Of a DNA stretch of 33,691 nt, positions 4,124 to 28,207 are shown piece after piece; the stretch's first letter is position 1, and every line of letters starts with the position of its first letter. Source of the stretch: Gammaproteobacteria bacterium (GTDB lineage Bacteria; Pseudomonadota; Gammaproteobacteria; Steroidobacterales; Steroidobacteraceae); the NCBI GenBank assembly GCA_028870355.1, contig JAGWPU010000075.1, forward strand, positions 66,350 to 100,040, written 5' to 3'. The position numbers were made by a program, and so were the translations under genes. Below the pieces are notes generated by a model that was not told the DNA's origin, did no database searches, and saw only the letters and a program-made list of their open reading frames with translations.

Positions 4124-4127
4124 ACGC

Positions 4128-10450: not shown

Positions 10451-10486
10451 GCGCGCACCCGCTCGCTCAGTCGGTCGACGCCGTGC

Positions 10487-10882
10487 TCACCGGAACCGCT
10501 CGTCCACGGCCACGTCGAGGGCCGTGACGAGGCGATTGGTCTCGTTCGCGAGGCCGACGATCGCCAGCATTTCCGAGTATTGCGCCTCGGTCATGCCCTT
10601 CTTGCGGGCCGCGGCACCGTGGGACGCGATGCAATAGCGGCAGCCGTTGCTCGCGCTGACCGCGACGTAGATCATCTCCTTGACGAGCGGATCCAGTGCG
10701 CCGGGACCCATCACTTCCTTGATGTTGGACCAGATCCGACGCAGGGTCGGCGGATCGTGGGCGAGCACTTTCCAGAAGTTGTTCACCCAGTCGATCTTGC
10801 GCGTCGCCATGATGTCGTCGTAGACCGCCCGCACTTCCGGCGATGCATCGGCATATTCAATCGGCTCTCTCTTTTGCGCCAC
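10487..10882 (-). CDS. AhpD-like / carboxymuconolactone decarboxylase family protein
   Basis: The 131-residue all-helical protein carries the full AhpD-type redox motif E-x11-C-x2-C-x3-H as Glu69, Cys81, Cys84 and His88 (around NGCRYCIASH). Family members act as thiol peroxidase partners or disulfide reductants in the cytoplasm. The start is GTG 10882, preceded by a strong ribosome-binding site (GGGAGGGG, 3 nt before the GTG). A longer in-frame opening up to 11044 would run into the upstream aminotransferase. It lies 37 nt downstream of that aminotransferase on the same strand and probably shares its transcript. It is convergent with the dimethylglycine dehydrogenase gene, 36 nt away. Confidence 0.9.
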   Translation of the reverse strand: MAQKREPIEYADASPEVRAVYDDIMATRKIDWVNNFWKVLAHDPPTLRRIWSNIKEVMGPGALDPLVKEMIYVAVSASNGCRYCIASHGAAARKKGMTEAQYSEMLAIVGLANETNRLVTALDVAVDERFR

Positions 10883-10919
10883 GTGCCCCTCCCGTTGTAA
10901 TCCTCGATCGATCCGCCCG

Positions 10920-12158
10920 TCAGTCGCTCCCGGTCGCGGCCGTCCCGGCACCGCAATGCGGCCAGCCTCGCGCCTGCTCCTCGTCGAGCACCGCCCCGAG
11001 CGCCGTGATGCCGCGCACGATGTCCTCCTCCCGCTGCGTCGCATAGCTCAGCCGCGCATGATTCGGGCGCTGGCGGAGCGGGAAGAACGTCGCACCCGGC
11101 ACATAGGCGACTTTCGCCTTCGGAATCGCCTCCTCGTAGAGGAACCGCCCGGAATCGAAGCCGTCCGGGAACGTGAGCCAGGTGAAGAGCCCGCCCTCCG
11201 GGTCGGTGCAGCGCACCTCGGGCGGGAACGTGCGGCGGATCGCCTCGAGCATCACGGCCTTCTTGCGGCGATAGCCCTCGCTCACCCGCGCGATGTGCGC
11301 GTCGAGATCGAACCGCTCCAGCAGCAGCGAGGTCGCGGTCATGTTGATCGTGCTGCACTGGGTGTCCGCGGCGAGCTTCAGGAGGCCCAGTCTTTCGATC
11401 AGCGCGCGCGAGGCCACGACCCAGCCGAGTCGCAGGCCGGGCGCGATGATCTTCGAGAAGCTGCCGACGTAGAACACGCGATCCTCGGTGTCGAACCGTT
11501 TGATCGGCGGCAGGGACTGCCCGGCGAAGCGGATGTCCCGATACGGACTGTCCTCGAGGATCATCAGGTCGTGACGGTTCGCGAACTCGATGAGCGCGCG
11601 GCGCCGCGCGAGGCTCATCGACGTACCCGTGGGATTCTGGAAGTCCGGGATCACGTAGATCAGCTTCGCATCCGGCGTGTGCGCGAGCACGGCTTCGAGC
11701 CGATCGACGCGCATCCCCTCCTCGTCCATCGGGACGGCCGCGTACCGCGGCTGGCACGGATTGAACGCGATCAGCGCGCCGAGGAAGGTCGGGTTCTCGG
11801 TCACGATCCCGTCGCCCCGGTTGATCAGGAGCTTCGCGATCAGGTCGAGCCCTTGCTGGGCGCCCTGCACGATCAGCACCTCGTCGGCCGAACAGGCGAC
11901 GCCCTCGCGCTGCATCCGCGCCGCGACCTGGGATCGCAAGCGCTCGAGGCCCTGGGAGGTCGCGTACTGCAGGCTCGACGAACCGACCTCGAGCAGCGCC
12001 TGCTGGTATGCGCTCGCGAGCTCGGCACGCGGAAAGGAATCCGGATCCGGGTAACCGCCGCCGAACGAGATGATCTGCGGATCCGCGCCGAGCCGGAGCA
12101 GTTCCCGGATCGCGGATGGTTTGACGCGCTGCATGCGTCGCGCGAGCTTGCCAGTCAT
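10920..12158 (-). CDS. PLP-dependent aminotransferase, class I/II (2-aminoadipate/MocR-catalytic type)
   Basis: The 412-residue fold-type I aminotransferase has a SFGGGYPDPDSFP opening motif and PDFQNPTGTS (Asn175), then EDSPYRDI (Asp203, Tyr206). The Schiff-base lysine is Lys236 in VGSFSKIIAPGLRLGW. The sequence type matches LysN/2-aminoadipate transaminases and the catalytic domain of MocR proteins, which transaminate aromatic, branched or long amino acids in the cytoplasm. I chose ATG 12158 (MTGKLARRMQRVKPSAIREL), which has a GGAGG 13 nt upstream. An upstream ATG at 12227 adds 23 non-conserved residues. Divergent from the Lrp-type regulator, and followed by the AhpD-like gene. The substrate is not identified. 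Confidence 0.92.
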   Translation of the reverse strand: MTGKLARRMQRVKPSAIRELLRLGADPQIISFGGGYPDPDSFPRAELASAYQQALLEVGSSSLQYATSQGLERLRSQVAARMQREGVACSADEVLIVQGAQQGLDLIAKLLINRGDGIVTENPTFLGALIAFNPCQPRYAAVPMDEEGMRVDRLEAVLAHTPDAKLIYVIPDFQNPTGTSMSLARRRALIEFANRHDLMILEDSPYRDIRFAGQSLPPIKRFDTEDRVFYVGSFSKIIAPGLRLGWVVASRALIERLGLLKLAADTQCSTINMTATSLLLERFDLDAHIARVSEGYRRKKAVMLEAIRRTFPPEVRCTDPEGGLFTWLTFPDGFDSGRFLYEEAIPKAKVAYVPGATFFPLRQRPNHARLSYATQREEDIVRGITALGAVLDEEQARGWPHCGAGTAATGSD

Positions 12159-12205
12159 GGGTCGTCTCGATCCTCCGACGTGAGGTCCGGTCGATGACGT
12201 TGAAT

Positions 12206-12236
12206 TGTAAGCAGGGATCGGCGGCATCGGCTTACA
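12206..12236. promoter_or_regulatory. Inverted repeat in the aminotransferase/Lrp divergent intergenic region
   Basis: TGTAAGC at 12206-12212 and GCTTACA at 12230-12236 are perfect inverted copies separated by 17 nt. This is the AT-richer part of an otherwise very GC-rich sequence, in the region shared by the divergent aminotransferase and Lrp/AsnC genes. Lrp-family proteins commonly regulate their own gene and a divergent neighbour from such a site. A second TTACATTT copy sits at about 12870-12877, just before the permease gene. That this is an operator is inference. Confidence 0.45.
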
Positions 12237-12314
12237 TTTTTGTCGTCATCGACCGAATTAATGTAATGTTCATTGCATCGGCAAGCACCCATGCTGCCAC
12301 CGGAGCGCGCCCCC

Positions 12315-12866
12315 GTGCCAACGACCTTCGATGAACTCGATCGGCTGGATCTGCGAATCCTCGACATCTTGCAGCACGATGCGACGCTGTCGGCGGCCCA
12401 GATCGGGGAGCGCGTCGGCGTGACCGGCCCGACCGCGTGGCGGCGGATCGCCCGCCTGGAGAAGGCGGGGATCATCACCGGCCGGCACGCCTCGATCGAC
12501 GCGTCCAAGGTCGGCCTAGGCCTGACCGTGTACGTGAAGATCAAGCTGGTGAACGGCGCGCGGGAATACCTGACGGCATTCGCGCGAGCGGTCGAGAAGA
12601 TCCCCGAGATCGTCGAATGCGTCGTAATCACCGGTGATGCCTCGTTCCTGCTGCGCGTGCTCGTGAAGGACACGGCCGCGTACGACGCGTTCTTCGTCGA
12701 CGTGCTCTCGGGCCTGCCCGGTCTGCTCGCGAGCGACTCGATCATCGTGCTGTCGACGGTGAAATCGACCCCGATGCTCCCCCTCGGCACCCCGCTACGG
12801 CGTGCATCGCTCACCCGCTGGCCGGATCGGTCCGCAACGCGCCCGCCAAATGGCGACGAACGATGA
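12315..12866 (+). CDS. Lrp/AsnC family transcriptional regulator
   Basis: The 183-residue protein (from GTG) begins FDELDRLDLRILDILQHDATLS, the usual AsnC-type opening. A helix-turn-helix follows at about residues 24-47 (AAQIGERVGVTGPTAWRRIARLEKAG). A RAM ligand-binding domain spans about residues 65-150 (VECVVITGDASFLLRVLVKDTAAY). Such proteins sense amino acids or related small molecules and act as dimers or octamers. GTG 12315 has GGAG 9 nt upstream; an in-frame ATG at 12291 has no clear ribosome-binding site but cannot be excluded. A basic, proline-rich tail of about 25 residues after the RAM domain is unusual. It probably controls the divergent aminotransferase-AhpD pair, the downstream permease operon, or both. 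Confidence 0.93.
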   Translation: MPTTFDELDRLDLRILDILQHDATLSAAQIGERVGVTGPTAWRRIARLEKAGIITGRHASIDASKVGLGLTVYVKIKLVNGAREYLTAFARAVEKIPEIVECVVITGDASFLLRVLVKDTAAYDAFFVDVLSGLPGLLASDSIIVLSTVKSTPMLPLGTPLRRASLTRWPDRSATRPPNGDER

Positions 12867-13012
12867 AACATTTGTTACATTTCGGTCGCGATCGATCGCG
12901 TTTTTTGAAAGGTGCGGTTGCGGGATCGTCGCTAGACTGGCTTCGGTGACCGAGACGCGTGACGATCGGGCGCCCACCAGCGGAAACTCAGGAAATACCC
13001 GGGGATCAACCG

Positions 13013-14662
13013 ATGTCGGTCAGCTACACCGCCAGGCGGGTCGCGAACGCGCGCGACGCACGCGCCGACGGCCGATTGCGGCGAGAGATCGGCGCGCTGC
13101 CGCTGCTGTTCACGGGCCTGAGCGCGATGATCGGGTCCGGCTGGCTGTTCGGTGCGCAGCGAGCCGCGGCCTTGGCGGGTCCGGCCGCAATCCTCGCGTG
13201 GCTGATCGGCGGCGCCGTGATCCTCGTGATCGCCGTGGCCGCCGCGGAACTCGGCACCGTGTTCCAGATCTCCGGCGGCCTCACGCGCTACCCGCAGGGA
13301 ACACACGGCGCCCTGGTCGGCTTCCTCGCCTCCTGGGCGAACTGGCTGTCGATCGCCGGCGCGATCCCGCTCGAAGCGGTCGCCTCCGTGCAGTACGTGA
13401 GTTCGTGGAACATGCCGTGGGCGCACGCGCTCGTGGTCGCGGGCACCCTGACCCGCACCGGATTGCTGCTCGCGAGCGCGCTGATCGTCGTCTACTTCCT
13501 CCTCAACTACTGGGGCGTGAAGCTCTTCGCGCGGTCGAATGCACTGATCACGGTGTTCAAACTGGTGGTGCCGACGCTCACCGGGATCGCACTGATCGCG
13601 GCATCGATTCGGCCCTCGCAGGCCGTCGGGAGCGGCCCCGGCGGGTTCTTCCCGTACGGACTCTCGGGCCTGCTGACCGCCGTCTCCACGTCCGGGATCG
13701 TGCTGTCGTTCAACGGCTTCCAGAGCCCCTTGAATCTCGCCGGCGAGGCCCGCGATGCGCACCGCACGATCCCGTTCGCGGTGATCGGGTCGGTTCTCCT
13801 CGGTGGCATCGTCTATCTCCTGCTTCAGGTCGCGTTCCTCGCCGCCGTGAGCCCCGCCGCGATCACCCACGGCTGGGCGACGGTCAACCTGAACTCGCCG
13901 TTCGCCGAACTCGCGATCGCGCTGAACCTGAACTGGCTCGCGATCGTGCTGTACGCGGACGCGTTCGTCTCGCCGAGCGGCGCGGGCATCACCGACATGG
14001 CGACCAGTTCGCGCATGATCCTCGGCGTCGAGTTGAACGGCCTGGCGCCGGCGCTGCTCGGACGGATCGATCCGGTCTACGGCGTGCCGCGACCGGCGCT
14101 ATGGATGAACCTGCTCGTCGCGTTCATCGTGCTGTACGGCTTTCGCGGCTGGAACGCACTCGCCGCGATGATCTCGGTCGCGACCGCGCTGTCGTACCTG
14201 ATGATCCCGATCTCCGCGATGTCGCTGCGGCGGACTGCGCCGGACCTGCACCGACCGTTCCGGGTTCGCGGGATGAATCTCGTCGGTACGATCGGATTCG
14301 TGATGGCGGGGGAACTGCTGTACTGGGCGCGCTGGCCGCTGACCGCCGAGATCATCGGCATGCTGCTCGTGCCGCTGCCGGTGTACCTGTGGTATCGACG
14401 CGGCCCCGCGCGCGCGCTGCTGCGATCGGACCTGCGCCATGCGACCTGGCTGCTGCTCTATCTGCCGGTCGTGGTCGCACTGTCCTGGCTCGGCAGCCGC
14501 GAATTCGGCGGGCATGGCCTGATCCCATACGGCTGGGACATGCTCGTCGTTGCGCTCGTCGCGACGTTGTTCTGCGCCTGGGGAACGCGCGCCGGACTGC
14601 CGGAGCCCGCGATCGCGGACCTGCTGCCGCCGGAAGCCGAGCTCGAATCATCGGATCATTGA
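13013..14662 (+). CDS. APC-superfamily amino acid permease
   Basis: The 549-residue inner-membrane protein has about twelve hydrophobic spans. The first span carries the APC hallmark FTGLSAMIGSGWLFGAQRAA (substrate/Na site glycines), and YPQGTHGALVGFLASW follows span 2. Later segments NLAGEARDAHRTIPFAVIGS and SYLMIPISAMSLRRTAPDLHRPF are typical of amino acid/polyamine/aspartate-type permeases. ATG 13013 has a GGGGA upstream; an earlier ATG at 12959 adds 18 unlikely residues. It lies 146 nt after the Lrp-type gene and 34 nt before the TonB receptor gene, so it could be the first gene of that operon. The substrate is presumably an amino acid or a close derivative. Confidence 0.92.
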   Translation: MSVSYTARRVANARDARADGRLRREIGALPLLFTGLSAMIGSGWLFGAQRAAALAGPAAILAWLIGGAVILVIAVAAAELGTVFQISGGLTRYPQGTHGALVGFLASWANWLSIAGAIPLEAVASVQYVSSWNMPWAHALVVAGTLTRTGLLLASALIVVYFLLNYWGVKLFARSNALITVFKLVVPTLTGIALIAASIRPSQAVGSGPGGFFPYGLSGLLTAVSTSGIVLSFNGFQSPLNLAGEARDAHRTIPFAVIGSVLLGGIVYLLLQVAFLAAVSPAAITHGWATVNLNSPFAELAIALNLNWLAIVLYADAFVSPSGAGITDMATSSRMILGVELNGLAPALLGRIDPVYGVPRPALWMNLLVAFIVLYGFRGWNALAAMISVATALSYLMIPISAMSLRRTAPDLHRPFRVRGMNLVGTIGFVMAGELLYWARWPLTAEIIGMLLVPLPVYLWYRRGPARALLRSDLRHATWLLLYLPVVVALSWLGSREFGGHGLIPYGWDMLVVALVATLFCAWGTRAGLPEPAIADLLPPEAELESSDH

Positions 14663-14696
14663 AAGATACGGCCTCAACGAAGCCGAAGGGGGAACC

Positions 14697-17111
14697 ATGT
14701 CGACGATCGGACGCCTGCATTCTCTGACGAGACCCCGTCTTGCGCCGCTGTGCGTGGCGCTCGGCGTGGGATGGGCCTTGAGCGCGCACGCCCAGGAGCC
14801 GTCGGCCAATTCCGATCAGGCACTGCAACAGATCGTCGTCACCGCGGAGACCTACGCGTCCTCCGCGCAGGAGACGCCGATCAGCCTCACCGCGGTGACC
14901 GGTGCGGATCTCGCGAAGCAAGGCACGACCTCGATCGAGGCGGTCGCTCGCGACGTCCCGGGCTTGTCGATGCGCAGCTCGGGGCCGGGTCAGAGTGAAT
15001 TCGAGGCACGCGGCATCGCCTCGAACGGCGGCAACTCGCCGACCGTCGGATTCTATCTCGGCGACATCCCGCTCGATCCGCCGGCGATGGGCCAGATCGG
15101 CAAGGTCGTGATCGATCCGAATCTCTACGACCTCGCCCGCATCGAAGTGCTGCGCGGTCCGCAAGGCACGCTCTACGGCTCGAGCTCGATGGGCGGCACG
15201 ATCAAGGTGATCCCGCATGCCCCGGTGCTCAACCGGTTCGAGGGCTCGGCCGACGCGATGCTCTCGCACACGAACGGTGGACGCGCGAACGGGTCGGCCG
15301 ATCTGATGCTGAATTATTCGAACAGCGATTACTGGGCGGTGCGTGCGGTCGTCTCGGACGCCTATCGCAGCGGCTGGATCAGCCGCACCGTGTTGAACCC
15401 CTTCCCGGCCGACGTGCTCGCGGCGAATGGCCCCCCGTGGACCCGCGGCGACGTCGCGAACACGCCCGCGCAGAGCATCACGCCGGACGTGAACCTCGAG
15501 CGCAAACTCTCGGGACGGGTCGAGTTGTTGATCCAGCCGAATTCCAAGTGGCAGGTGAACCTGCTCGCGCTCGGTCAGCAGATGAATCTCGGTGGCTACG
15601 ACGAATTCGATCTGCCGCCGGGCCCGAACCATCTGACCCATTACCAGCCGTATCCGATCGCCGAACGCGTGCACGACCGCGCCAGCATCTTCTCCGCGAC
15701 GATCAAGGGGAAGCTCGGCTTTGCGGACCTGACGAGCGCGACCGGCTACTTCGAGCGCCAGCCCTGGCAGGTGCAGGACGCGTCCGAAGCGACTTCCTGG
15801 ACCCTCGAGTCCTTCCTGGTGACGCCCGCGCAGATGGCGGCGCTCGGCATGCCGACGTACATCAACGCGCCGATCTACGAGGCGGAGCCGGAACACGAGT
15901 TCAGCCAGGAAGTGCGCCTGAACTCGGCGGGCAACACCAATCTCCACTGGGTCACCGGACTCTTCTACAGCAAGCTGAACTCCTCGTTCGTCGAGTCCCA
16001 GTACGCACCCTACATCGCACAGCTCTCGCAACAGCTCTCGCCGCCGATGAACAATCCGGCGGGCTTGACGTTCGGGCTGAACAATCTGTACGAGATCGCG
16101 CAGAAAGCGGCATTCGCGGACGCTTCCTGGCGGCTCGCCCCGTCCTGGAAGCTCGAAGGCGGCTTGCGCTGGTACCGGTACGACACCTCGGCGTACAACA
16201 ACGAGTGGGGATACTTCTTCACGCCACAGGCGGCCCCGCTCGCGAACCCGCCCGGCCAGTTCTCGAACGCATCCGGCGTGATCCCCCGCGTGGACCTCGC
16301 CTGGCTGCCGACGAGCAAGGTGATGATGTACCTGTCCGCCTCCAAGGGCTTCCGTCCGGGCGGCGCGAACATGGCGATCCCGCTGACCGCGTGCCCGCTC
16401 GGCGGACCGAAGTCGTTCAATCCGGACACCGTCTGGGACTACGAGCTCGGCGGCAAGTCGATGCTCGCGAACGACCATGTCCGCATCAACGGCGACTTCT
16501 ACTACATCAAGTGGGATCAGGTTCAGCAGACCGCGCTGCTGTCGTGCGGCACCCAGTACGTGACCAATGCGGGCAACGGCCGCAGCTACGGCCCGGAGCT
16601 GGACTTCGCGGCGCGGTTCCTGGATCACTGGACCGTGCACCTCGCCGGCACCTGGACCCAGGCCGACATCACCAGCCCGAGCGCGTCCTACGTCGGCTCG
16701 CTCGCGAATTCCGGGTACAGCTTCCCGAGCTGCCCGGTCGGCGGTCCGTGCAACAGCATCCCGATCCTGAACGTGCCGAAGGAGACCGCGAGCGCATCGA
16801 TCGACTACTCGATGCCGGTCGCCGACAAGACGCTGACCGTGCGCCTCGACGGGACCTACACCGGGTCGTCCTGGGACGAGGCCTTCTCGGTGATCCAGCT
16901 CCCGGGATATGCGATGGCGAATCTGCGCGTGACGCTCGCCGCGAACCGCTGGACGGGCGCGTTCTTCATCACGAACCTGACGAACAAGGTGCCCTGGGTG
17001 TCGGCGAACAACACGAGCTTCAGTTTCAACATCGGACCGCTGACGCGGATCTCGACCGTGCAACCGATGACGATCGGCACGCAGTGGAGCTACAAATTCG
17101 GAGGGGAATGA
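14697..17111 (+). CDS. TonB-dependent outer-membrane receptor
   Basis: The 804-residue protein has a signal peptide (cleavage expected after AHA at residue 32) and a TonB-box-like QQIVVTAE at residues 44-51. A plug domain follows with LARIEVLRGPQGTLYGSSSMGGTIKV, then a long beta-barrel. It ends in SYKFGGE, near an aromatic terminal residue as usual for barrels. ATG 14697 follows a purine-rich ribosome-binding site (AAGGGGGAACC). It belongs to the broad receptor group common in sphingomonads and some gammaproteobacteria, often encoded beside catabolic genes. There is no N-terminal STN signalling domain and no adjacent ECF sigma factor, so it is a plain importer. The next gene starts 1 nt after its stop. 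Confidence 0.95.
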   Translation: MSTIGRLHSLTRPRLAPLCVALGVGWALSAHAQEPSANSDQALQQIVVTAETYASSAQETPISLTAVTGADLAKQGTTSIEAVARDVPGLSMRSSGPGQSEFEARGIASNGGNSPTVGFYLGDIPLDPPAMGQIGKVVIDPNLYDLARIEVLRGPQGTLYGSSSMGGTIKVIPHAPVLNRFEGSADAMLSHTNGGRANGSADLMLNYSNSDYWAVRAVVSDAYRSGWISRTVLNPFPADVLAANGPPWTRGDVANTPAQSITPDVNLERKLSGRVELLIQPNSKWQVNLLALGQQMNLGGYDEFDLPPGPNHLTHYQPYPIAERVHDRASIFSATIKGKLGFADLTSATGYFERQPWQVQDASEATSWTLESFLVTPAQMAALGMPTYINAPIYEAEPEHEFSQEVRLNSAGNTNLHWVTGLFYSKLNSSFVESQYAPYIAQLSQQLSPPMNNPAGLTFGLNNLYEIAQKAAFADASWRLAPSWKLEGGLRWYRYDTSAYNNEWGYFFTPQAAPLANPPGQFSNASGVIPRVDLAWLPTSKVMMYLSASKGFRPGGANMAIPLTACPLGGPKSFNPDTVWDYELGGKSMLANDHVRINGDFYYIKWDQVQQTALLSCGTQYVTNAGNGRSYGPELDFAARFLDHWTVHLAGTWTQADITSPSASYVGSLANSGYSFPSCPVGGPCNSIPILNVPKETASASIDYSMPVADKTLTVRLDGTYTGSSWDEAFSVIQLPGYAMANLRVTLAANRWTGAFFITNLTNKVPWVSANNTSFSFNIGPLTRISTVQPMTIGTQWSYKFGGE

Positions 17112-17112
17112 C

Positions 17113-18009
17113 GTGAACGACCATCGAGTTCGACTTCGCAACCGCCTCGCGAGCACCCTGCTGGTCGCCTCGCTCGGCCTGCCGTTCGTCGCCCGCGCCA
17201 CCGCGTCGCCCGCGCCGGCACGGCCGGCGGCGGCATCCGCGCCGGCGTTTCCCCTGTGGTCGATCTATCGCCACGTCCTGGCCGGCGCCCGTTACGTCGA
17301 CCTGACGCACGCGTTCGGACCGGACACGCCGCACTGGAAGGGGTTCGGGCCGATGACCGTGCGCACGCTCTATACCATCCGCAAGAACGGCTTCCACGTG
17401 GACCAGTACTGTCACGTCGGCCAGTGGGGCACCCACGTGGACGCGCCCGCGCACTTCCATCACGGCATGCGGACGGTGGACCAGATCCCGGTGGACCAGA
17501 TGCTGATGCCGCTCGTCGTGCTCGACGTGCACAAGCAGGTCGAGAAGGATCCGGACTATGCGATCACGATGGGCGATGTCCGCGCCTGGGAGCATCGTTA
17601 CGGCAGGATCCCTCCGCACGCCTTCGTCGCGATGCGCACCGACTGGTCGAAGCGCTGGCCGAGCCAGAAGGCGATGCAGAACAAGGATGCGCACGGCATC
17701 GCGCACTATCCCCGCTGGAGCCTGCCGGTGCTGAAGTTCCTGTTCACGCAGCGGCACGTCACGGCGATCGGGCACGAGACGACCGATACCGACGGCGGTC
17801 TCGGGGCGTCGAAGGACGATTACTCGCTGGAGTCCTACGTGCTCGGCACCAATCACTACCAGATCGAGGTGCTCGCGCACCTGAACGAGGTTCCGGATGC
17901 CGGCGCGCTGGTGATGGTGTCCTTCCCGAAACCTGAGCACGGCACGGGTTTCCCGGCGCGCGTCGTCGCGATCGTTCCCCGGAACGACGCCGGCACGGGC
18001 GCGCACTGA
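17113..18009 (+). CDS. Periplasmic cyclase/kynurenine-formamidase-like metal hydrolase
   Basis: The 298-residue protein has a signal peptide (hydrophobic core around residues 13-27, AxA-type site ending at residue 31), placing it in the periplasm. The metal-binding signature of the cyclase/KynB family is complete: HVGQWGTHVDAPAHF gives His101, His108, Asp110 and His114. The later conserved region GHETTDTDGG and the tail NHYQIEVLAHLNEVP also fit. KynB hydrolyses N-formylkynurenine in the cytoplasm; exported relatives act on unknown amides, lactones or cyclic compounds. GTG 17113 has GGAGGGG upstream and lies 1 nt after the TonB receptor stop, so the two are coupled and the substrate may be what the receptor imports. 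Confidence 0.9.
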   Translation: MNDHRVRLRNRLASTLLVASLGLPFVARATASPAPARPAAASAPAFPLWSIYRHVLAGARYVDLTHAFGPDTPHWKGFGPMTVRTLYTIRKNGFHVDQYCHVGQWGTHVDAPAHFHHGMRTVDQIPVDQMLMPLVVLDVHKQVEKDPDYAITMGDVRAWEHRYGRIPPHAFVAMRTDWSKRWPSQKAMQNKDAHGIAHYPRWSLPVLKFLFTQRHVTAIGHETTDTDGGLGASKDDYSLESYVLGTNHYQIEVLAHLNEVPDAGALVMVSFPKPEHGTGFPARVVAIVPRNDAGTGAH

Positions 18010-18054
18010 GGACGTCCGGATCCCGCTCGCCATTCGAACCGAGAGGCACTCTGC

Positions 18055-18435
18055 ATGACTGCACCGACCAAGACCCAGGTTCCCCACTACCGCTGGGACG
18101 ACCTGCCCGCGGAACCGCTGAAGGGGACCATCACTCGCAAGCTGGTCACCGGCGAGCGGATGATGATCGCGCACGTCTACCTGAAGAAGGGCGACGAGGT
18201 ACCCCGGCATTCGCATCACAACGAGCAACTGACGTACATCCTGTCGGGCGCGCTGCACTTCTGGTTCGGACCGGAAGGCGACTCCGAGATCACGGTGCGT
18301 GCCGGCGAAGTGATCGTGATTCCGTCGAATCTGCCGCACCGGGCGCTCGCGCTCGAGGACACGCTCGACGTGGACGTGTTCTCGCCGCCGCGCGAGGACT
18401 GGCTCACCGGCACCGACGCCTACCTGCGAGGCTGA
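18055..18435 (+). CDS. Single-domain cupin protein
   Basis: The 126-residue small beta-barrel protein carries both cupin motifs. The first includes RHSHHNEQ, with His52, His54 and Gln58 or Glu57 as likely metal ligands, then YILSGAL. The second is GEVIVIPSNLPH, with His95. There is no signal peptide. Single-domain cupins are isomerases, dioxygenases, decarboxylases or sensors, so the reaction is not decided. Its stop codon is directly followed by the ATG of the aminotransferase (no spacer), so translation is probably coupled. Confidence 0.9.
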   Translation: MTAPTKTQVPHYRWDDLPAEPLKGTITRKLVTGERMMIAHVYLKKGDEVPRHSHHNEQLTYILSGALHFWFGPEGDSEITVRAGEVIVIPSNLPHRALALEDTLDVDVFSPPREDWLTGTDAYLRG

Positions 18436-19500
18436 ATGAGCGCCTACGACGTGGACCCGGGCGTCGCCGCCGCCGTCCGGGGCTTCACCCTGCCGGAGAA
18501 GCTCGGCTTCGGGCTCGTGAACGCCCCGGTGATGTACAGCGCGACCTGGCGCGAGGGCGCGTGGAGCCGGGGGCAGCTCCTCCCGTACGGACCGATCGAG
18601 CTGTGGCCGGGCTCGCGCGCGCTGCAGTACGCCGAACTCGTGTTCGAGGGGCTCAAGGCGTACCGGGTCGGACAGGAGCGGCCAAGCTTCTTCCGCCCGG
18701 AGGAGAATTGCCGCCGGATGGCGCGCTCGGCGGCCCGGATGTCGATGCCCGTCGTCAGCGAGCCTCTGTTCTTCGAGGGCATCGAGGCCGTGACCCGCAC
18801 GTGCAGCGACTTCATTCCGAGACAGTCCGGACGATCGCTCTATCTGCGGCCGTTCCTGTGCGGCACGGAGAACAGCTACCTGCTGAAGAACTCCTCCACG
18901 TTCCGCTTCATGGTGATCGCCAATCCGGTGGAAGCCTACGCCGCCGGCGCGCTCAAGGTGACGATCGAGCGCACGGACGTGCGCGCGGCCGCGGGTGGGA
19001 TCGGAGAAGCCAAGGCGGCGGCGAACTACGCCGCGTCGCTGCGCGCGTCCACGGCGGCGGTGAATCGAGGCTGTACCGTCGCGCTGTGGCTCGACGCCGC
19101 GCACCATCGTGACGTGCAGGAGCTCTCGGGGATGAACGTGTTCGTCGTGATCGACGGCGAACTGCACACCCCGGCGCTCGACGGCACGATCCTGCCCGGC
19201 GTCACGCGCGATTCCCTGCTCCAGCTGGCGCGCAGCCTCGGCTACGCGACCCACGAGCGGCGCATCGCGATCGACGAGATCATAGACGGAATCCGCAGCG
19301 GCGCGTGCACCGAGGTGTTCGCGTGCGGGACCGCGGCGATCGTGAGCCCGATCGAGTCGCTCTGGGAGAGCGACGGGCGCCATCACTCGCCGCCGAACGT
19401 CGACGTCGTCGCCAAGCGCCTGCGCGAATCCTTGCTCGCGATTCAGGAGCGGCGCGCGCCCGACCCGTTCGGATGGACGAGAGACCTGTCCATCGCGTAG
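18436..19500 (+). CDS. Branched-chain-type aminotransferase (fold type IV)
   Basis: The 354-residue PLP enzyme is related to the long (eukaryote-like, type II) IlvE group. It contains ALQYAELVFEGLKAYR, then SLYLRPFLCGTENSYLL. The Schiff-base lysine is Lys193 in GEAKAAANYAASL. QELSGMNVFVV, LPGVTRDSLLQLA and VFACGTAAIVSPI form the phosphate and substrate sites. These enzymes exchange the amino group of Val, Leu or Ile with 2-oxoglutarate. Here the gene sits in a seven-gene run with uptake functions rather than with ilv biosynthetic genes, so a catabolic role on another hydrophobic amino acid is plausible. It begins directly after the cupin stop, and the next gene starts 14 nt after its own stop. 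Confidence 0.93.
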   Translation: MSAYDVDPGVAAAVRGFTLPEKLGFGLVNAPVMYSATWREGAWSRGQLLPYGPIELWPGSRALQYAELVFEGLKAYRVGQERPSFFRPEENCRRMARSAARMSMPVVSEPLFFEGIEAVTRTCSDFIPRQSGRSLYLRPFLCGTENSYLLKNSSTFRFMVIANPVEAYAAGALKVTIERTDVRAAAGGIGEAKAAANYAASLRASTAAVNRGCTVALWLDAAHHRDVQELSGMNVFVVIDGELHTPALDGTILPGVTRDSLLQLARSLGYATHERRIAIDEIIDGIRSGACTEVFACGTAAIVSPIESLWESDGRHHSPPNVDVVAKRLRESLLAIQERRAPDPFGWTRDLSIA

Positions 19501-19514
19501 ACCGCGGAGGAACC

Positions 19515-20498
19515 GTGACCGACAGCACTCGAGCGATCGTGATCCACGAGACCGGCGGACCGGAAAAGCTCGTGTGGGAGAGCGTTCCGGTCGCCCCGCC
19601 GGGGCCGGGCGAGGTCGTGATTCGCCACACCGCGATCGGGGTCAATTTCCACGATACCTACGTGCGCTCCGGGCTCTACCAGACGCTTCGCTTGCCGGGG
19701 ATCCCCGGGATCGAGGCGGCCGGGATCGTCGAGCGGATCGGCGACGGCGTCGCGGGGCTCGCGGTCGGCGACCGGATCACGTACATCGATGCCAGCTACG
19801 GCGCATATGCCGAGCGGCGCGTGCTGCCGGCACGCCTCGCGGTACGGCTTCCGCCGGGCGTGGCCGACGACGTCGCGGCGAGTCTGACGATCAAGGGCTT
19901 CACCGCGTCGATGCTGCTGCAGTCGGTGCATCGCGTCCGCGCCGGTGAGACCGTGCTGATTCACGCGGCCGCGGGGGGCGTCGGCCAGCCGCTGGTCCGC
20001 TGGGCGAAGCACCTCGGCGCGACCGTGATCGCGACGGCCGGGTCCGCCGAGAAGCTCGCGATCGCGCGCGATTGCGGGGCGGATCACGTGATCAATTACC
20101 GGGAAGAGAATTTCGTCGACCGCGTGGCTCAACTGACCGCGGGGCGCGGCGTCGACGTCGCGTACGACTCGGTCGGCGCCTCGACGTTCCTGGGGTCGCT
20201 CCAGTGCCTCGCGTTCCAGGGACTGCTGGTGAATTTCGGCCAATCCTCGGGTCCGGTCGCGCCGTTCAGCCCGTCGCTGCTCGCGACCCGGTCGAACGGC
20301 GTCGTGCGCCCGATGGTGTTCCACTACATTCGCGATCGCGGCGCGCTCGACGCCATGGCCGCGCAGGTATTCGGCGCGATCGAGAAGGGCATCCTGCGCG
20401 CGCCGACGATCACGCGCCTCCCGCTGGCCCAGGCATCCGAAGCACACGGGTTGCTGGAGTCCCGGCGATCCACCGGACCGATCGTGCTCGAGCCCTGA
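19515..20498 (+). CDS. NADPH:quinone oxidoreductase-like zinc-independent MDR enzyme
   Basis: The 327-residue cytoplasmic protein belongs to the quinone reductase branch of the medium-chain dehydrogenase family. The N-terminal GroES-like half includes [15 protein letters not shown]. The Rossmann half has [20 protein letters not shown], then [13 protein letters not shown] and [12 protein letters not shown]. The zinc-binding cysteines of alcohol dehydrogenases are missing. Family members reduce quinones or the double bond of enones using NADPH. GTG 19515 has GGAGG 4 nt upstream; the frame is open further upstream but that would overlap the aminotransferase. Within this operon it may reduce an unsaturated intermediate. 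Confidence 0.92.
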
Positions 20499-20534
20499 TT
20501 CCCGCAGACCCCACCGACGCCAGGAGATCGATTC

Positions 20535-21455
20535 ATGAAAGTGTCCCGAATCGTCGCACTCGCCGCCTTCGCCCTCTTCGGCGCCGCCTCGGTACGCGCG
20601 GCCGAGGTCACGGTCGTCCGCAACGTCATGGGTCCCGAGGGCCCGCTGTTCGTCGACGGCAACCTGTATTACGTGGGCTGGGTCTCGAATACCCTGTCGC
20701 GCTGGAACGGACACGAGAGCACCGTGCTCAATCACCTCGACGGTTGCAGCCACAATGGCCTCGCACTCACGAAGCAGCACACCTTCCTGCTCGCGTGCAC
20801 GGCCGAACGAGGCGCGATCCTCGAGCTCAGCATGAGCGGCAAGATCCTGCGTCGCTGGGACGCGGACGACAAGGGGCGACAATTCATCGGCGGCATCAAT
20901 GACCTGATGGTCACCGCCAACGGCGGCGCCTATGCGACCGTGTTCGGCACGTACAAGACCGTACCCGAGGGCGTGACCGGCAAGATCCTCTATCTCGCGC
21001 CCGGCGCCAGCCAGTGGGTCCAGGTCGCCACCGATCTGAACTACGCGAACGGCATCGGCATCTCCCCCGACCAGAAGACGCTCTACGTCGACGAAACGGT
21101 CGGCGACTGCATCCTGAAGTTCACCGTGAATCCGGACGGAACGCTCAGCCATCGCTCGAACTTCGCGCTGCTCTACGTGCTGGTTCCGAACAAGGTCAAC
21201 TCATGGTGGATCGGACCGGACAGCATGAAGGTCGGACGACGCGGCAACCTGTACGTCGCCCAGTGGATGGGCGGCAAGGTCCTGAAGATCTCGCCCACCG
21301 GCAAACTCCTGCACGTCTTCCACATCGCCGCGGGTGACGGCACCACGAACGTCGCGTTCGGACCCGGGGAGAAGGACCTGTACGTGACGGTGGTGAAGGA
21401 TCCGAACGATCCGCTCGCCCGCGGCAGCATCGTGCGGATTCCGAACGTCCCGTAG
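20535..21455 (+). CDS. Periplasmic SMP-30/gluconolactonase-like beta-propeller protein
   Basis: The 306-residue protein has a clear signal peptide (cleavage after VRA, residue 22). Repeated blades such as [32 protein letters not shown] and [16 protein letters not shown] mark a six-bladed propeller of the SMP-30/NHL class. The four residues that bind the catalytic metal in SMP-30 lactonases appear to be conserved: Glu35 (PEGPLF), Asn122 (INDLMV), Asn172 (ANGIGIS) and Asp229 (GPDSMK). A metal-dependent lactonase or esterase acting in the periplasm is therefore likely; the substrate is unknown. Last gene of the operon, 36 nt after the reductase, with a strong hairpin just downstream. Confidence 0.88.
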
Positions 21456-21465
21456 CGCGCCCGCG

Positions 21466-21507
21466 CGAGCGCCGCGAGCGCGTTTCACCGCGCCATCGCG
21501 GCGCTCG
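21466..21507. terminator. Strong GC-rich hairpin ending the operon
   Basis: CGAGCGCCGCGA at 21466-21477 pairs perfectly with TCGCGGCGCTCG at 21496-21507. Inside it GCGCG (21478-21482) pairs with CGCGC (21489-21493), leaving a 6-nt loop and a 2-nt bulge. It lies 10 nt past the SMP-30-like stop and 20 nt before the efflux operon start. There is no U tract after the stem, so it is not a textbook intrinsic terminator. It may work with Rho or protect the mRNA end. Confidence 0.6.
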
Positions 21508-21527
21508 GGAATCGGGAGAAACGCGTA

Positions 21528-23090
21528 TTGCGCCCGCCGAGCGCGCGGCCCCATAGTGGCCGTGTGCGGCCCGTTCTTCAGGTGAAAGTGCCCGGCGGTC
21601 CCGATCGGCCGCCGTGCGGCAGGCTCGCCGCGCTGGCGGCGCTGGTCGCGGTCGCGGGCTGCACGGTCGGCCCGCGGTTCGTCGCGCCGACCGCCCCGCG
21701 GACCGACGCCTACACCCCCGCGCGCACGGCCCCCCAGCTCGATGCGGGTCCGGGCGAGCCGGGGCAACGCCTGTCGATCGGCCGCGCGCCATCGCCGGCC
21801 TGGTGGGAGCGATTCGGCTCCCCGACGATCGACGCCCTGGTTCGTCGCGCGCTGGCGCACAACCCGACGCTCGACGCGGCCCGCGCAACGCTCGCGCAAG
21901 CCGAGCAGGTCGTGCGGGAGACCCGCGCCGGTCTATACCCGCAAATCGACTTCGGCGCCACCGCGCAGCGCCAAAAGGGGCCGGCGTTCGCGCTCGGCCT
22001 GCTGCCCCGGGGATCCGGCTTGCCGCAGTACGATCTGTACTCGGTCGGACCCACCGTGCGCTTCGCCCCCGACGTGTTCGGCCTGAACGCGCACCGTATC
22101 GAAGAGCGCGAAGCGCTCGCGGACGTGCAGCGGGACCAGGTCGCGGCGGCGGTCCTCGCGATCACCGGCAACACCGTGACCGCGGCGCTCGATCTCGCCG
22201 CGCTGCACACGCAGATCGAGGCGATCCGGCGCATCGTCGCCGACGACGAACGCGCTCTGGCGCTCGCGCGACATCGGTTCTCGGTCGGCCGTGCCGCGCG
22301 CACGGACGTGCTGATCGCCGAGGCGCGCCTCGCGAGCGACCGCGCCCGCCTGCCGGGGTTCCGTCGGCGTCTGGCCGCGACCGAGGATGCGCTCGCGGTG
22401 CTGCTCGGAGAATCCCCGGCGCAGTGGACACCTCCCGCGTTCGATCTGAGCGCAGTCCGCCTGCCGACCGATCTGCCGCTCGTACTGCCGTCGCGCCTCG
22501 TGCGCCGCCGACCCGACATCCTCGCGTCCGAGTCGATCGTCCACGCTCGCAGCGCCGCGGTCGGCATCGCGACTGGCGAGCTGGTTCCGCAGATCGAGAT
22601 CTCGGGCGCCTTCGGCACCAGCGCACTCGCAGCCCGCTCGCTGTTCGGCCCGACGAGCGCGGTCTGGTCGATCGCCGCCGGCCTCAGCGCACCGGTATTC
22701 CATGGCGGTGCGCTCGAGGCGCAGCGGCGCGCCGCGGTCGAGGCGCTGCGCGCCTCGCTCGCGATGTACCGGGCGACCGTGCTGGCCGCGTTCGGTCAAG
22801 TCGCGGACACCCTGCGATCGCTGGGTGACGACGCGGCACAGGTGCGCGCGGCGCATCGCGCGCTCGCGGTCGGGCTCGCGAGCCTGCGGATCCAGCGGGC
22901 CCGTTTCGCGGCCGGACGGATCGACCGGACGCGGCTGATCGACGCCGAACGGACGGTCGAGGATGCCCGCGTCGACTACACCGAGGCGATCGCCGAGCGC
23001 GAGATCGACAGCGCCCGACTGTTCGTCGCGCTCGGTGGCGCCGCGCCGGCCGACCGCGCATCTCCCCTGTCCGGAGCACTCCCGCGATGA
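21528..23090 (+). CDS. Outer-membrane efflux lipoprotein (TolC/NodT family)
   Basis: The protein of up to 520 residues is the outer-membrane channel of a tripartite exporter. A lipoprotein signal with lipobox VAGC (Cys45 from the first start) is followed by CTVGPRF and the PSPAWWERFGSPTIDALVRRAL region. Two OEP repeats follow, with typical helices such as ARATLAQAEQVVRETRAGLYPQIDF and RHRFSVGRAARTDVLIAEARL. The start is uncertain. TTG 21528 has a good GGGAGAA upstream, while GTG 21588 would give a more usual short lipoprotein signal of about 25 residues. Its end overlaps the next gene's ATG by 4 nt (ATGA at 23087-23090), so it is the first gene of the export operon. Confidence 0.92.
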   Translation: MRPPSARPHSGRVRPVLQVKVPGGPDRPPCGRLAALAALVAVAGCTVGPRFVAPTAPRTDAYTPARTAPQLDAGPGEPGQRLSIGRAPSPAWWERFGSPTIDALVRRALAHNPTLDAARATLAQAEQVVRETRAGLYPQIDFGATAQRQKGPAFALGLLPRGSGLPQYDLYSVGPTVRFAPDVFGLNAHRIEEREALADVQRDQVAAAVLAITGNTVTAALDLAALHTQIEAIRRIVADDERALALARHRFSVGRAARTDVLIAEARLASDRARLPGFRRRLAATEDALAVLLGESPAQWTPPAFDLSAVRLPTDLPLVLPSRLVRRRPDILASESIVHARSAAVGIATGELVPQIEISGAFGTSALAARSLFGPTSAVWSIAAGLSAPVFHGGALEAQRRAAVEALRASLAMYRATVLAAFGQVADTLRSLGDDAAQVRAAHRALAVGLASLRIQRARFAAGRIDRTRLIDAERTVEDARVDYTEAIAEREIDSARLFVALGGAAPADRASPLSGALPR

Positions 23091-24139
23091 ATCCTCGACT
23101 TCGAACGCGGCTGGCGGTCGCGATCGTGATCCTTGCCGTCGCGATCGTCGCGGCGGTGATCTACGTTCGGCGGAATCGCACCGGCGGTGCCGCGACCTTG
23201 ACGTTCTACGGGAACGTCGACATCCGGGAAGCGCGGCCGGCCTTCGACGCGACCGGTCGCGTCACGACGATGCGGGTCGTGGAAGGCGCTCGGGTCACGA
23301 AGGGGGAATGGATTGCCTCGATCGACGACACCCGCTATGCCGCACGGCTCGCGGAGGCGACGCAGCGCAGTGCGACGCTCGCGGCGGATCTCGCGCGACT
23401 GAAGCACGGCTCGCGACCGGAGGAGATCGCGCGGGCGAAGGCGGTGCTGGACGGCTTGCGTGCGACATTCGCGAACGATCGCGCGGTGTACGAGCGAACC
23501 GCGACCCTCCTGCCCCAGGGTGGCGCATCGACCGAAGAGCGCGACGACGCGCGCGCCCGACTTCGCGCGGACCGCGCCGCCGTCGAGGCCGCCCGCCAGA
23601 CCTACGTGCTCGCGGTGCGCGGACCCCGGCGCGAGGACGTCACCGCGGCGCGCCACGCGTATCGCGCAGCGCTGGCGGCGACCGCACTCGCACGCCGGGA
23701 GTTCGCGGACACCCGCTTGTACGCACCGGTCGACGGCGTCGTCGAGGATCGGATCCTGGAGTCGGGCGACATGGCCTCCCCCGCGATCCCGGTCTACACG
23801 ATCGCGATCACGGGCCTCAAGTGGGTTCGGGCGTACGTGCCGGAAAGCGATCTCGGCCGCGTGCGCCTCGGGATGCGCGCGACCATCGCGACCGACAGCT
23901 ATCCGGGCCGACGCTACCCGGGCTGGATCGGCTATCTCTCGCCGACGGCCGAATTCACGCCGAAGACCGTGGAGACGCCGGCGCTGCGCACCGCGCTCGT
24001 GTATCAGGTCCGCGTGTACGTCTGCGATCCGCGGGGCGAGTTGCGCCTGGGGATGCCCGCGACCGTTCAGCTCGATCTCGGCGCACCCGGGTCGACGGCG
24101 GCGCCGGGGTGTGGACCGACGGATGCCGCCGCCCACTGA
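23087..24139 (+). CDS. HlyD-family periplasmic adaptor (membrane fusion protein)
   Basis: The 350-residue protein has one N-terminal membrane span (about residues 8-25, VAIVILAVAIVAAVIYV). A lipoyl-like half follows, YGNVDIREARPAFDATGRV with MRVVEGARVTKGEWIASIDD, then a coiled-coil hairpin (about residues 85-190) and the returning beta-barrel (LYAPVDGVVEDRILESGDM). It matches the YhiI/YbhG type that works with ABC-2 exporters, bridging the inner-membrane ABC complex and the outer-membrane channel. It overlaps the upstream gene by 4 nt and the ATPase gene by 17 nt. Confidence 0.93.
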   Translation: MNPRLRTRLAVAIVILAVAIVAAVIYVRRNRTGGAATLTFYGNVDIREARPAFDATGRVTTMRVVEGARVTKGEWIASIDDTRYAARLAEATQRSATLAADLARLKHGSRPEEIARAKAVLDGLRATFANDRAVYERTATLLPQGGASTEERDDARARLRADRAAVEAARQTYVLAVRGPRREDVTAARHAYRAALAATALARREFADTRLYAPVDGVVEDRILESGDMASPAIPVYTIAITGLKWVRAYVPESDLGRVRLGMRATIATDSYPGRRYPGWIGYLSPTAEFTPKTVETPALRTALVYQVRVYVCDPRGELRLGMPATVQLDLGAPGSTAAPGCGPTDAAAH

Positions 24140-25931
24140 CGCCGAGCCGGCCCTGCGGCTCGCCGACGTCCGCCACCGATTCCGTTCCGGCCCGCGCGAC
24201 GTGGCCGCGCTCGCCGGCGTCAGTGCGACCGCGATGCGTGGCACGGTGACCGGCCTGATCGGCCCCGACGGCGCCGGCAAGACCACGCTGATGCGGCTGG
24301 TCGCGGGGCTGCTCCGGCTGCAGTCGGGGCGTGTCGAGGTGCTCGGCATCGACGTCGGTCGCGATCCACTCGCGGTGCAGGCACGCCTCGGGTACATGCC
24401 GCAGCGCTTCGGACTGTATGAGGATCTCACGGTCCAGGAGAACCTCGACCTGTACGCGGATCTGCAGGACGTACCGCCGGCCGAACGGCGTGCTCGGTAT
24501 GCGCAGCTGCTGCCGCTGACCGGACTCGGTCCCTTCACGAAACGTCTCGCGGGCCGACTGTCGGGCGGCATGAAGCAGAAGCTCGGCCTCGCGTGCACCC
24601 TGCTGCATCCGCCCGAGTTCCTGCTGCTCGACGAACCGACCGTCGGGGTCGATCCCGTGTCGCGCCGCGAACTGTGGCGCATCATCGAACACCTGACCCG
24701 GGAATCCCGCACGACCGTGCTGTTCAGCACCGCCTACCTCGACGAGGCCGAACGCTGCGACCAGGTGATCCTGATCCACGAAGGACGGCTGCTCGGCGCC
24801 GGCACGCCCGCTGCGTTCACCGCCGAGATCGCCGGTCGCAGCTTCCTCGCCTCCGCCGGGCTCGGCCGTCGAGAGCTCCAGGCCCGTCTGAGCGCGGCGC
24901 CCGGGATCCTCGATGCCGTGATCCAGGGCGATCGCGTGCGCATCGTGACCGCATCGACCGGCACCGCCGCATCCGCCGACTGGAGCCGCGCGGCGCCGGG
25001 ACTGTCGCTGACACCGACGCCGCCGCGCTTCGAGGACAGCTTCGTCGCGAAACTGCGCGGAATCGCCCGCGCGAACGAGCCCCCGCTCCCTCCCGCATCG
25101 CCGACGGCCACGCCGGTCGCCACCGCTCCCCCGCCGCCAGTGACCACAGGCTCGACCCCCGGCGGCACGCCCGAAGAACCGGTGATCGTGGTCGAGCACC
25201 TCACGCGGCGGTTCGGCCCCTTCGTCGCGGTGCGCGACGTGAGCTTCGCGGTCGGCCGCGGCGAGATCTTCGGCCTGCTCGGCGCGAACGGTGCGGGCAA
25301 ATCGACGACGTTCCGGATGCTGTGCGGCCTGTTGCCGGCCTCGGCGGGCCGCCTGCGCGTCGCCGGGTTCGATCTGCGAACCGCCGCGGCGACGGCACGC
25401 GCCCGCATCGGCTACATGGCTCAGAGATTCTCGCTCTACGCCGACCTGTCGGTGCGCCAGAACCTGCGTTTCTTCAGCAGCGCGTATCGTCTGTCCGGCG
25501 CGCGGCAGATCGCGCGGATCGACTGGGCGGTCGGCGAGTTCGACCTGGCCGCGGTGCTCGACGCGACCGCGCGCGACCTCGCGCTCGGCTACAAGCAGCG
25601 GCTCGCGCTCGCGTGCGCGCTGATGCACGAGCCGCAGATCCTGTTCCTCGACGAGCCGACCTCCGGCGTCGACCCGCTCGCCCGGCGCGAATTCTGGCGC
25701 CGGATCAATGCGCTCGCCGAATCCGGGGTCACGGTGCTGGTCACCACCCATTTCATGGAGGAAGCCGAGTACTGCGACCGCTTGATCATCATGGCGAGCG
25801 GACGGGTGCTGGCCGACGGCACGCCGGCCTCGATCAAGGCGAGCGCGCGTCGCGACGACCGACCGGATCCGACCCTCGAGGACGCGTTCATCGCGATGAT
25901 CGACGCCGCCGGCACCGAGGTGGCGGCGTGA
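24123..25931 (+). CDS. ABC exporter ATPase with two fused nucleotide-binding domains (RbbA/YhiH-like, without membrane domain)
   Basis: The 602-residue protein carries two complete ABC ATPase domains. The first has Walker A GPDGAGKTT, signature LSGGMKQKLGLA and Walker B LLLDEPTVGVDP. The second has Walker A GANGAGKST, Walker B LFLDEPTSGVDP and a divergent signature LALGYKQRLALA in place of LSGGQ. A proline/threonine-rich linker at about residues 318-353 separates them. Domain order and the odd second signature match E. coli RbbA (YhiH), but RbbA carries its membrane domain in the same chain, whereas here that domain is the next gene. ATG 24123 lies inside the end of the adaptor gene. The GTG of the permease overlaps its stop (GTGA). 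Confidence 0.93.
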   Translation: MPPPTDAEPALRLADVRHRFRSGPRDVAALAGVSATAMRGTVTGLIGPDGAGKTTLMRLVAGLLRLQSGRVEVLGIDVGRDPLAVQARLGYMPQRFGLYEDLTVQENLDLYADLQDVPPAERRARYAQLLPLTGLGPFTKRLAGRLSGGMKQKLGLACTLLHPPEFLLLDEPTVGVDPVSRRELWRIIEHLTRESRTTVLFSTAYLDEAERCDQVILIHEGRLLGAGTPAAFTAEIAGRSFLASAGLGRRELQARLSAAPGILDAVIQGDRVRIVTASTGTAASADWSRAAPGLSLTPTPPRFEDSFVAKLRGIARANEPPLPPASPTATPVATAPPPPVTTGSTPGGTPEEPVIVVEHLTRRFGPFVAVRDVSFAVGRGEIFGLLGANGAGKSTTFRMLCGLLPASAGRLRVAGFDLRTAAATARARIGYMAQRFSLYADLSVRQNLRFFSSAYRLSGARQIARIDWAVGEFDLAAVLDATARDLALGYKQRLALACALMHEPQILFLDEPTSGVDPLARREFWRRINALAESGVTVLVTTHFMEEAEYCDRLIIMASGRVLADGTPASIKASARRDDRPDPTLEDAFIAMIDAAGTEVAA

Positions 25932-27049: not shown

Positions 27050-27054
27050 CGCCG

Positions 27055-28164: not shown

Positions 28165-28207
28165 CCGCGTCGCCCGTCGATCGCGGTCGACCCAGCGCGC
28201 GGCGGCA

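Follow-up and report, generated by a model that had tools for sequence, protein, structure and literature searches.

Which genes of a presumed breakdown locus belong together, and what kind of compound they act on, are the questions raised by a 33,691-nucleotide stretch of a Steroidobacteraceae genome (assembly GCA_028870355.1, contig JAGWPU010000075.1, positions 66,350 to 100,040), hereafter called the window, which lies on contig C39 of an assembly of 2.93 Mb in 162 contigs. The initial annotation had read seven consecutive genes of the window as one uptake-and-breakdown operon. That the seven genes as such form the pathway is not supported. What stays linked in other genomes, in spite of a reshuffled gene order, is the exported PF04199 hydrolase CYC together with the aminotransferase AT4, the cupin CUP and CMD, a carboxymuconolactone-decarboxylase-family protein lying outside the seven. 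This four-gene unit, often accompanied by a TonB receptor and by interchangeable amino-acid transporters, is well supported, and to this extent the reading as an uptake-and-breakdown locus stands.

All seven open reading frames are on the forward strand at the coordinates claimed for them, with spacers of exactly 34, 1, 45, 0, 14 and 36 nt, and their family names hold in Pfam. The first codes for an APC amino-acid permease of 549 aa (13013..14662; PF13520, 131.7 bits) and the second for a TonB-dependent receptor (14697..17111) with a signal-peptide-like, hydrophobic N-terminus and both the plug and the barrel domain (PF07715, PF00593; the Pfam query carried one extra codon). They are followed by CYC, an exported metal-dependent hydrolase of 298 aa (17113..18009; PF04199, 134.9 bits against a cut-off of 23.1), the single-domain cupin CUP of 126 aa (18055..18435; PF07883, 51.6 bits), AT4, a class-IV aminotransferase resembling branched-chain aminotransferases (BCATs; 18436..19500), QOR, a quinone-reductase-like MDR oxidoreductase (19515..20498; PF00107, PF08240), and SGL, an exported SMP-30/gluconolactonase-like beta-propeller (20535..21455; PF08450, 114.6 bits against 26.3). 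The locus is larger than these seven genes. Upstream of them is a gene for an Lrp/AsnC-family regulator (12315..12866, forward strand; PF01037, PF13404), whose GTG start was picked by comparison with two related loci (L031 and L142), and a divergent arm on the reverse strand, running from 12158 down to 10487, holds AT1, a fold-I aminotransferase of the LysN/KAT-II/multiple-substrate type (412 aa, 10920..12158; PF00155), and CMD, an AhpD-like protein of 131 aa (10487..10882; PF02627, 68.1 bits against 23).

CYC itself was used as the query against 84,980 species genomes, and the best 80 of the 226 confirmed matches were taken as CYC loci. Partner genes were counted by tblastn within 8 kb of CYC, with arbitrary identity thresholds that the counting script set at 40-55% depending on the gene, since our home-made gene caller, with a codon model trained on nine genes of the window, misses genes in low-GC loci. 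CMD, which the initial annotation had overlooked, was found in 47 of the 80 loci, CUP in 25 and AT4 in 24; 23 of the AT4-bearing loci also have CUP and 22 have CMD, in varying order and strand. A TonB receptor of a second type (b) occurs in 21 loci and one of the window's type (a) in seven. Smaller counts were obtained for QOR and an amidohydrolase resembling Xaa-Pro dipeptidase (8/80 each), an SNF transporter (7/80), an SDR enzyme, AzlC and AzlD (6/80 each) and a BcaP-like APC permease (4/80), while SGL, the window's own APC permease, the regulator and AT1 were each found at a single locus, L031. The gene order runs CYC-CUP-AT4-QOR-APC-CMD in L035, CMD-CUP-CYC-SNF-AT4-AzlCD in L039, CMD-CUP-SDR-AT4-TonB-CYC-SNF in L051 and CYC-CMD-CUP-AT4 in L058, and a linkage that outlasts such rearrangement is stronger evidence than an unchanging order would be. 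The gene-order search thus gave a divided answer: the full set of seven is not conserved beyond close species, whereas the CYC-CMD-CUP-AT4 core is conserved more widely. SGL and the window's own permease count as local additions, and QOR, like SGL, is an accessory of some lineages. Outside L031 and G022 (L143), the two strong SGL homologues (79% identity in G002 and 66% in G027) were met on short contigs, of 7.8 and 8.8 kb, that carry neither CYC nor AT4, and with its single occurrence among the CYC loci this removed SGL from the core.

Two other arrangements were seen among the 80 loci. In 14 Pseudomonas loci (L057, L060, L068, L075, L078, L081-L088 and L110), CMD adjoins CYC in divergent orientation, without AT4 or CUP. 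In a second set (L052, L069, L071 and L080, counted with an identity threshold of 38%), CYC is accompanied by a receptor like that of the window (39-46% identity), a glutamine-synthetase-like enzyme and an isochorismatase, and in some of them by a class-III aminotransferase, permeases, and CMD or an N-formylglutamate amidohydrolase. This gene content would be consistent with amino acids or amines as the products of CYC.

The association also appears when AT4 is taken as the starting point. Among 60 related genomes, 14 of 15 places with AT4 (57% identity or more over at least 150 residues, which leaves out short fragments in G011, G019 and G022:C257) have CUP nearby, the exception being G007:C3. 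With minimum identities of 60% for CYC and 57% for AT4, both genes are present in 12 of the same 60 genomes, CYC alone in two (G003, G004), AT4 alone in two (G027, G034) and neither in 44, giving a one-sided Fisher p of 5e-9, or 4e-6 when the comparison is restricted to the family (37 genomes), both uncorrected for kinship. Of the genomes so scored, G016, with merely 41 matching CYC residues, counts among the 44, and G027 holds just a CYC piece of 49% identity. In the sequence covered for G034 (L132) and G017 (L133), CMD or CYC did not turn up, and in that for G021 (L130) CYC did not. The CYC genes most similar to the window's lie on contigs of metagenome-assembled genomes (MAGs) labelled Proteobacteria, Gammaproteobacteria or Steroidobacteraceae.

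The extent of the unit in the window can be read from three related genomes. L031 (genome G006) carries the seven genes in identical order with 88-96% protein identity, together with both arms. In G022 contig L032 carries the receptor, CYC, CUP and AT4, and contig L143 has QOR and SGL. In G016 (L142), CMD, AT1, the regulator, the permease and the receptor are present, and the contig then breaks off within CYC; the right half could not be located in this assembly, where the best AT4 match has 34% identity and the best SGL match an E value of 3e-8, so that this genome backs the left arm only. AT1 occupies the same place in L031 and L142. In L031 a DUF302 gene directly follows SGL across a clean junction, and the 6.7 kb efflux cassette found at 21467-28207 of the window (outer-membrane factor at 21582-23090 by Pfam, HlyD-like and ABC genes by eye) is absent, which places the end of the unit at SGL.

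Intergenic alignment of the window, L031 and L142 revealed identical blocks (AATTGTAAGCAG, ATCGGCTTACATTTTTGTCG and TTAATGTAATGTTC, with ATTTGTTACAT ahead of the permease gene). A putative Lrp-type operator is proposed at 12205..12266, in the gap between AT1 and the regulator, with TTGTAAGC and TTACAT and ATGTAA half-sites; a conserved GATGAAANATTTGTTACAT block with the same half-site lies 5' of the permease gene and overlaps the regulator stop (12862..12880). ATGTAA occurs three times in the whole window, each time beside the regulator gene, against 0.83 expected, and at least three times in 6 of 100 shuffled sequences. The regulator scores 99.5 bits with the Lrp model, below its cut-off of 233. 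These conserved half-sites flank both arms, which speaks against two independent neighbouring units, that is, an Lrp-regulated amino-acid unit (AT1 and the permease) beside an unrelated TonB-CYC-CUP-AT4 unit. The presence of the regulator, the permease and AT1 at just one of the 80 CYC loci (and in L142), and a G016 assembly with the left arm in which AT4 and SGL were not found, are what such a division would predict. On the other side, CMD, the core partner of CYC elsewhere, sits here in the AT1 arm, which suggests that the arms share a function, and other amino-acid transporters occupy the slot of the APC permease at other loci. We regard two separate units as improbable.

What CYC does depends on its metal site, which the initial annotation had described as complete in both exported enzymes. 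The best PDB match of CYC is 8f9x (no publication was found for it), followed by 5nna, 5nnb, 5nmp and 4j0n, and CYC could be aligned to the isatin hydrolase 5nna over about 230 residues. Residues were mapped through the published numbering of isatin hydrolase (PMC6117287). His69, His73, Asp75 and His79 of isatin hydrolase correspond to Gln104, His108, Asp110 and His114 of CYC, and Asp193, the base His207 and Gln219 to Asp227, Glu240 and Glu252; all seven CYC residues are invariant in 81 of 81 CYC sequences. The first metal histidine is thus replaced by Gln104, and the claim of a complete site fails for CYC. The motif reads QxxxHxDxxxH instead of the HxxxHxDxxxH of isatin hydrolases. The GLQC/GLAS signature and the WXW/FXW pocket, which mark isatin hydrolases (PMC6117287), are likewise absent, CYC having QIEV at the first place and, in the pairwise alignment, FHV opposite WKW. 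Isatin degradation was discarded on these motifs.

The fold leaves several other chemistries to consider. Glu252 falls at the position of the glutamate in the I(L/I)E motif of the kynurenine formamidase KynB, a feature tentatively connected in PMC6117287 with linear amides or two metals, and it hints that CYC might act on a linear amide, ring opening by the exported enzymes being one option. The fold can also carry out C-C hydrolysis (PMC10470551). MGS0169 and trans-dienelactone hydrolase have a glutamine at the first motif position, as CYC does, and MGS0169 is reported to be sensitive to alanine replacement of its motif residues Gln127, Gln131 and Asp133 (PMC5341072), so that the variant site of CYC need not be dead. 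CYC is predicted to act outside the cytoplasm. Of the 80 CYC proteins judged, 79 have a hydrophobic segment at the N-terminus (one further CYC is cut by a contig end) according to a simple hydropathy test with a threshold of 1.7, used in place of a signal-peptide predictor, and the window's CYC reaches 2.31, compared with 0.45-1.51 for six proteins of the locus expected to be cytoplasmic.

This bears on the idea that CYC is simply the missing kynurenine formamidase of its own genome's tryptophan-to-NAD pathway. It is the only PF04199 match in that genome, which also codes for a tryptophan 2,3-dioxygenase and a kynureninase scoring over their cut-offs (L152 and L153, on contigs C83 and C4), the latter beside frames that read by eye like kynurenine 3-monooxygenase and 3-hydroxyanthranilate dioxygenase; AT1 resembles KAT-II, and Glu252 matches the KynB glutamate. 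CYC appears to be exported, however, and scores 31.3 bits against the 223.05 of the arylformamidase/KynB equivalog of NCBIfam. The two-metal ligands of KynB, His50, His54, Asp56, His161 and Glu173 (PMC4243253), correspond to Gln104, His108, Asp110, Glu240 and Glu252, as mapped through the isatin hydrolase alignment and the spacing of 12 in the KynB numbering, in place of a direct KynB alignment. The dioxygenase is moreover present without this type of CYC in nine genomes of the same genus (G001, G005, G010-G013, G015, G019 and G020), four of which (G005, G010, G015 and G020) have weaker PF04199-like matches, and it was not found in G004 and G014, which both have CYC. Export, motif and dioxygenase distribution make a role in this pathway highly improbable, and it was set aside.

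The partner proteins point to amino acids in a different way. AT4 passes the equivalog cut-offs for BCATs (PRK13357, 351.5 against 307 bits; ilvE_II, 291 against 250.05) and aligns to 3dtf through GGxGxAK..NYAASL, with the region of the pyridoxal-phosphate-binding lysine kept. AT1 is closest to 1wst (304.8 bits). The window's permease falls well short of the BcaP model in NCBIfam (122.7 against 690 bits), while the permease replacing it at other loci scores best with that model (537.8 bits), also under the cut-off. The amidohydrolase of eight loci matches a Caulobacter Xaa-Pro dipeptidase (244.5 bits, under the cut-off of 500) and, as second PDB match, the L-arginine carboxypeptidase Cc2672 (169.6 bits). 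CMD carries CRYCIASH, a case of CxxCxxxH, which we take to be the AhpD/CMD motif, and its nearest PDB chain is 2ouw (E 7e-44). QOR can be assigned to the MDR family, its 287.2 bits with PRK10754 lying below the cut-off of 348. SGL aligns with PDB chains of its family, which include lactonases, at PEGP (weakly), NGIG and DSM. It may keep the standard metal ligands, presumably Glu, Asn and Asp, and for this one of the two exported enzymes the claim of a complete site may hold.

The reading we favour, as a plausible one that still falls short of being probable, is that the locus serves to scavenge, by way of its TonB receptor, conjugates of an amino acid that is hydrophobic and perhaps branched-chain. 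By family, the TonB receptor would bring the conjugate into the periplasm, where CYC, with its Gln-His-Asp-His site completed by Glu240 and Glu252, may cleave the amide bond. The free amino acid would then enter through a permease (APC here; BcaP-like, SNF or AzlCD at other loci) and be transaminated to the 2-oxo acid by AT4, and in this clade also by AT1; the enzyme family of AT4 is assigned from the curated models, its substrate being a prediction. CMD and CUP most likely process an oxidised intermediate or the remaining part of the conjugate. Encoded between the divergent arms, the Lrp-type regulator may sense the amino acid and control both of them through the putative ATGTAA half-sites. 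The BCAT-like AT4, the BcaP, AzlCD and SNF transporters, the amidohydrolase and the second set of loci are all consistent with the release of amino acids or amines by cleavage of an amide, and a mechanism of the general type first proposed, with import, periplasmic cleavage and transamination, is plausible. The linkage of the genes is well supported, and the chemistry is inferred from their families. No description of such a locus, nor of a pathway with this gene set, was found in the literature by titles and abstract openings, in agreement with the initial annotation.

A different bond would change the substrate. If CYC were an esterase or a lactonase, the substrate would be of the depsipeptide or lactone type, and the neighbouring genes could oxidise N-methyl amino acids: positions 2867-10450 of the forward strand hold soxB, soxD, soxA and soxG of a heterotetrameric sarcosine-oxidase type, followed by a dimethylglycine-dehydrogenase-like gene (DAO and GCV_T domains). 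The lactonases among the SGL-family structures fit this idea, as does MGS0169, a variant-motif relative that is a far better esterase than isatin hydrolase (PMC5341072). However, the orientation of the sarcosine-oxidase genes is convergent to that of CMD, soxG and the dimethylglycine-dehydrogenase-like gene were seen at the same place in only L031 and L142 besides the window among the gene-called loci, and SGL lies outside the wider core. We give this alternative little credence, and sarcosine oxidase is a low-probability part of the pathway. Further out, a molybdopterin oxidoreductase of the formate-dehydrogenase/DMSO-reductase type (696-2720, reverse strand) scores under every curated cut-off tested, and the GC content is raised across 21-26 kb of the window; this upstream enzyme and the downstream efflux cassette are judged to be separate from the locus.

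The locus could also serve detoxification and not nutrition, with exported CYC (and SGL) destroying a harmful small molecule that leaks in, CMD, CUP and QOR handling reactive products, and the amino-acid genes as passengers. The AhpD-like CMD with its CxxCxxxH motif and the quinone-reductase-like QOR would suit such a role, as would the 14 Pseudomonas loci in which CYC and CMD stand without AT4 or CUP. The recurrence of AT4 at 24 of 80 loci, 23 of them with CUP, and of amino-acid transporters of different families at these loci is difficult to reconcile with passengers, and a TonB receptor suggests deliberate import. Detoxification is therefore considered unlikely.

Several observations weigh against scavenging of amino-acid conjugates, or against the generality of the unit. 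MGS0169, with glutamine at two motif positions, is mainly an esterase, and CYC might likewise cut an ester. CMD and CUP, the most constant partners, belong to broad families and have no clear place in the scheme, and the AzlC match passes Pfam but reaches 45.6 bits where the azlC equivalog requires 332. CMD is missing within 8 kb at 33 of the 80 CYC loci (some of the fetched stretches being short), many of these best 80 of 226 loci come from related MAGs, and the AT4 fragment of G011 (L144) has no partner nearby. Outside close relatives AT4 and CUP of this type are rare: at E<=1e-100 AT4 was found in 3 of 369 genomes of the class, its own included, and at E<=1e-40 CUP in 1 of 398 genomes of the phylum, which is its own, few genomes of the same family being among those sampled, and two distant AT4 matches (L136, L137) have no partners nearby at the thresholds used. 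The module thus looks restricted to a lineage. CYC proteins 55-61% identical to the window's, by contrast, occur without partners at the thresholds used in very distant phyla, in MAGs of Methanothrix/Methanosaeta (L103, L106), in L095, L097 and L105 (Oscillatoria) and in a Bacillota MAG (L092), and the activity of CYC may be more general. Lastly, a simple consensus scan of 10400-21800 detected no site resembling a promoter. Terminator-like sites numbered ten, where 4.4 were expected; some lie on the forward strand inside the permease gene (14548) and the receptor gene (15509) and one pair between the regulator and the permease, so that a single transcript from the permease to SGL is no more than a possibility.

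PF04199 enzymes mostly carry vague names such as 'cyclase family protein'. The CYC branch spans several phyla, nearly always has an export-type N-terminus and has its metal ligands altered in a fixed way, and the genes around it in one lineage suggest conjugates of amino acids. A bolder proposal, possible but doubtful, is that CYC founds a widespread exported PF04199 branch whose new metal centre (Gln-His-Asp-His with Glu240 and Glu252) serves to split amide conjugates in the periplasm. In the same proposal, CYC-CMD-CUP-AT4 would be an undescribed pathway that lets soil Gammaproteobacteria feed on hydrophobic amino acids in conjugated form, and a sister version would serve for amines. The substrate of CYC, once found, would name the branch and place CMD and the cupin in the pathway.

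Among known systems, the general layout of the locus is that of TonB-linked nutrient-uptake loci, in which a receptor, an exported hydrolase, an inner-membrane transporter and catabolic enzymes are coded together; the window locus differs from these by its amino-acid enzymes, CMD and the cupin. With the isatin hydrolases A and B (LaIHA, LaIHB), CYC shares the family and the positions of His108, Asp110, His114 and Asp227, and is set apart by Gln104, Glu240 and Glu252, by the lack of GLQC/GLAS and WXW, by its export-type N-terminus and by its amino-acid locus. KynB has the same fold family and the I(L/I)E glutamate in common with CYC, which breaks the HxxxHxD motif at the first histidine and has Glu240 where KynB has His161. 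MGS0169 and trans-dienelactone hydrolase, also of PF04199, are a precedent for an active site of this kind through their first-position glutamine, although their motif is QxxxQxDxxxH, and CYC has a glutamate where MGS0169 has His286 (through His212 of isatin hydrolase). The dihydrophloroglucinol cyclohydrolase of the anaerobic phloroglucinol cluster is likewise an isatin-hydrolase-like 'cyclase' within a degradation gene cluster, one that performs C-C hydrolysis with this fold; its cluster is a different one and, unlike CYC, it is said to keep the metal site of isatin hydrolase in highly conserved form. Finally, AT4 resembles IlvE (3dtf) in its BCAT scores and its lysine region, but unlike IlvE it stands in a catabolic locus, beside a separate homologue of 35% identity elsewhere in the genome (C115).

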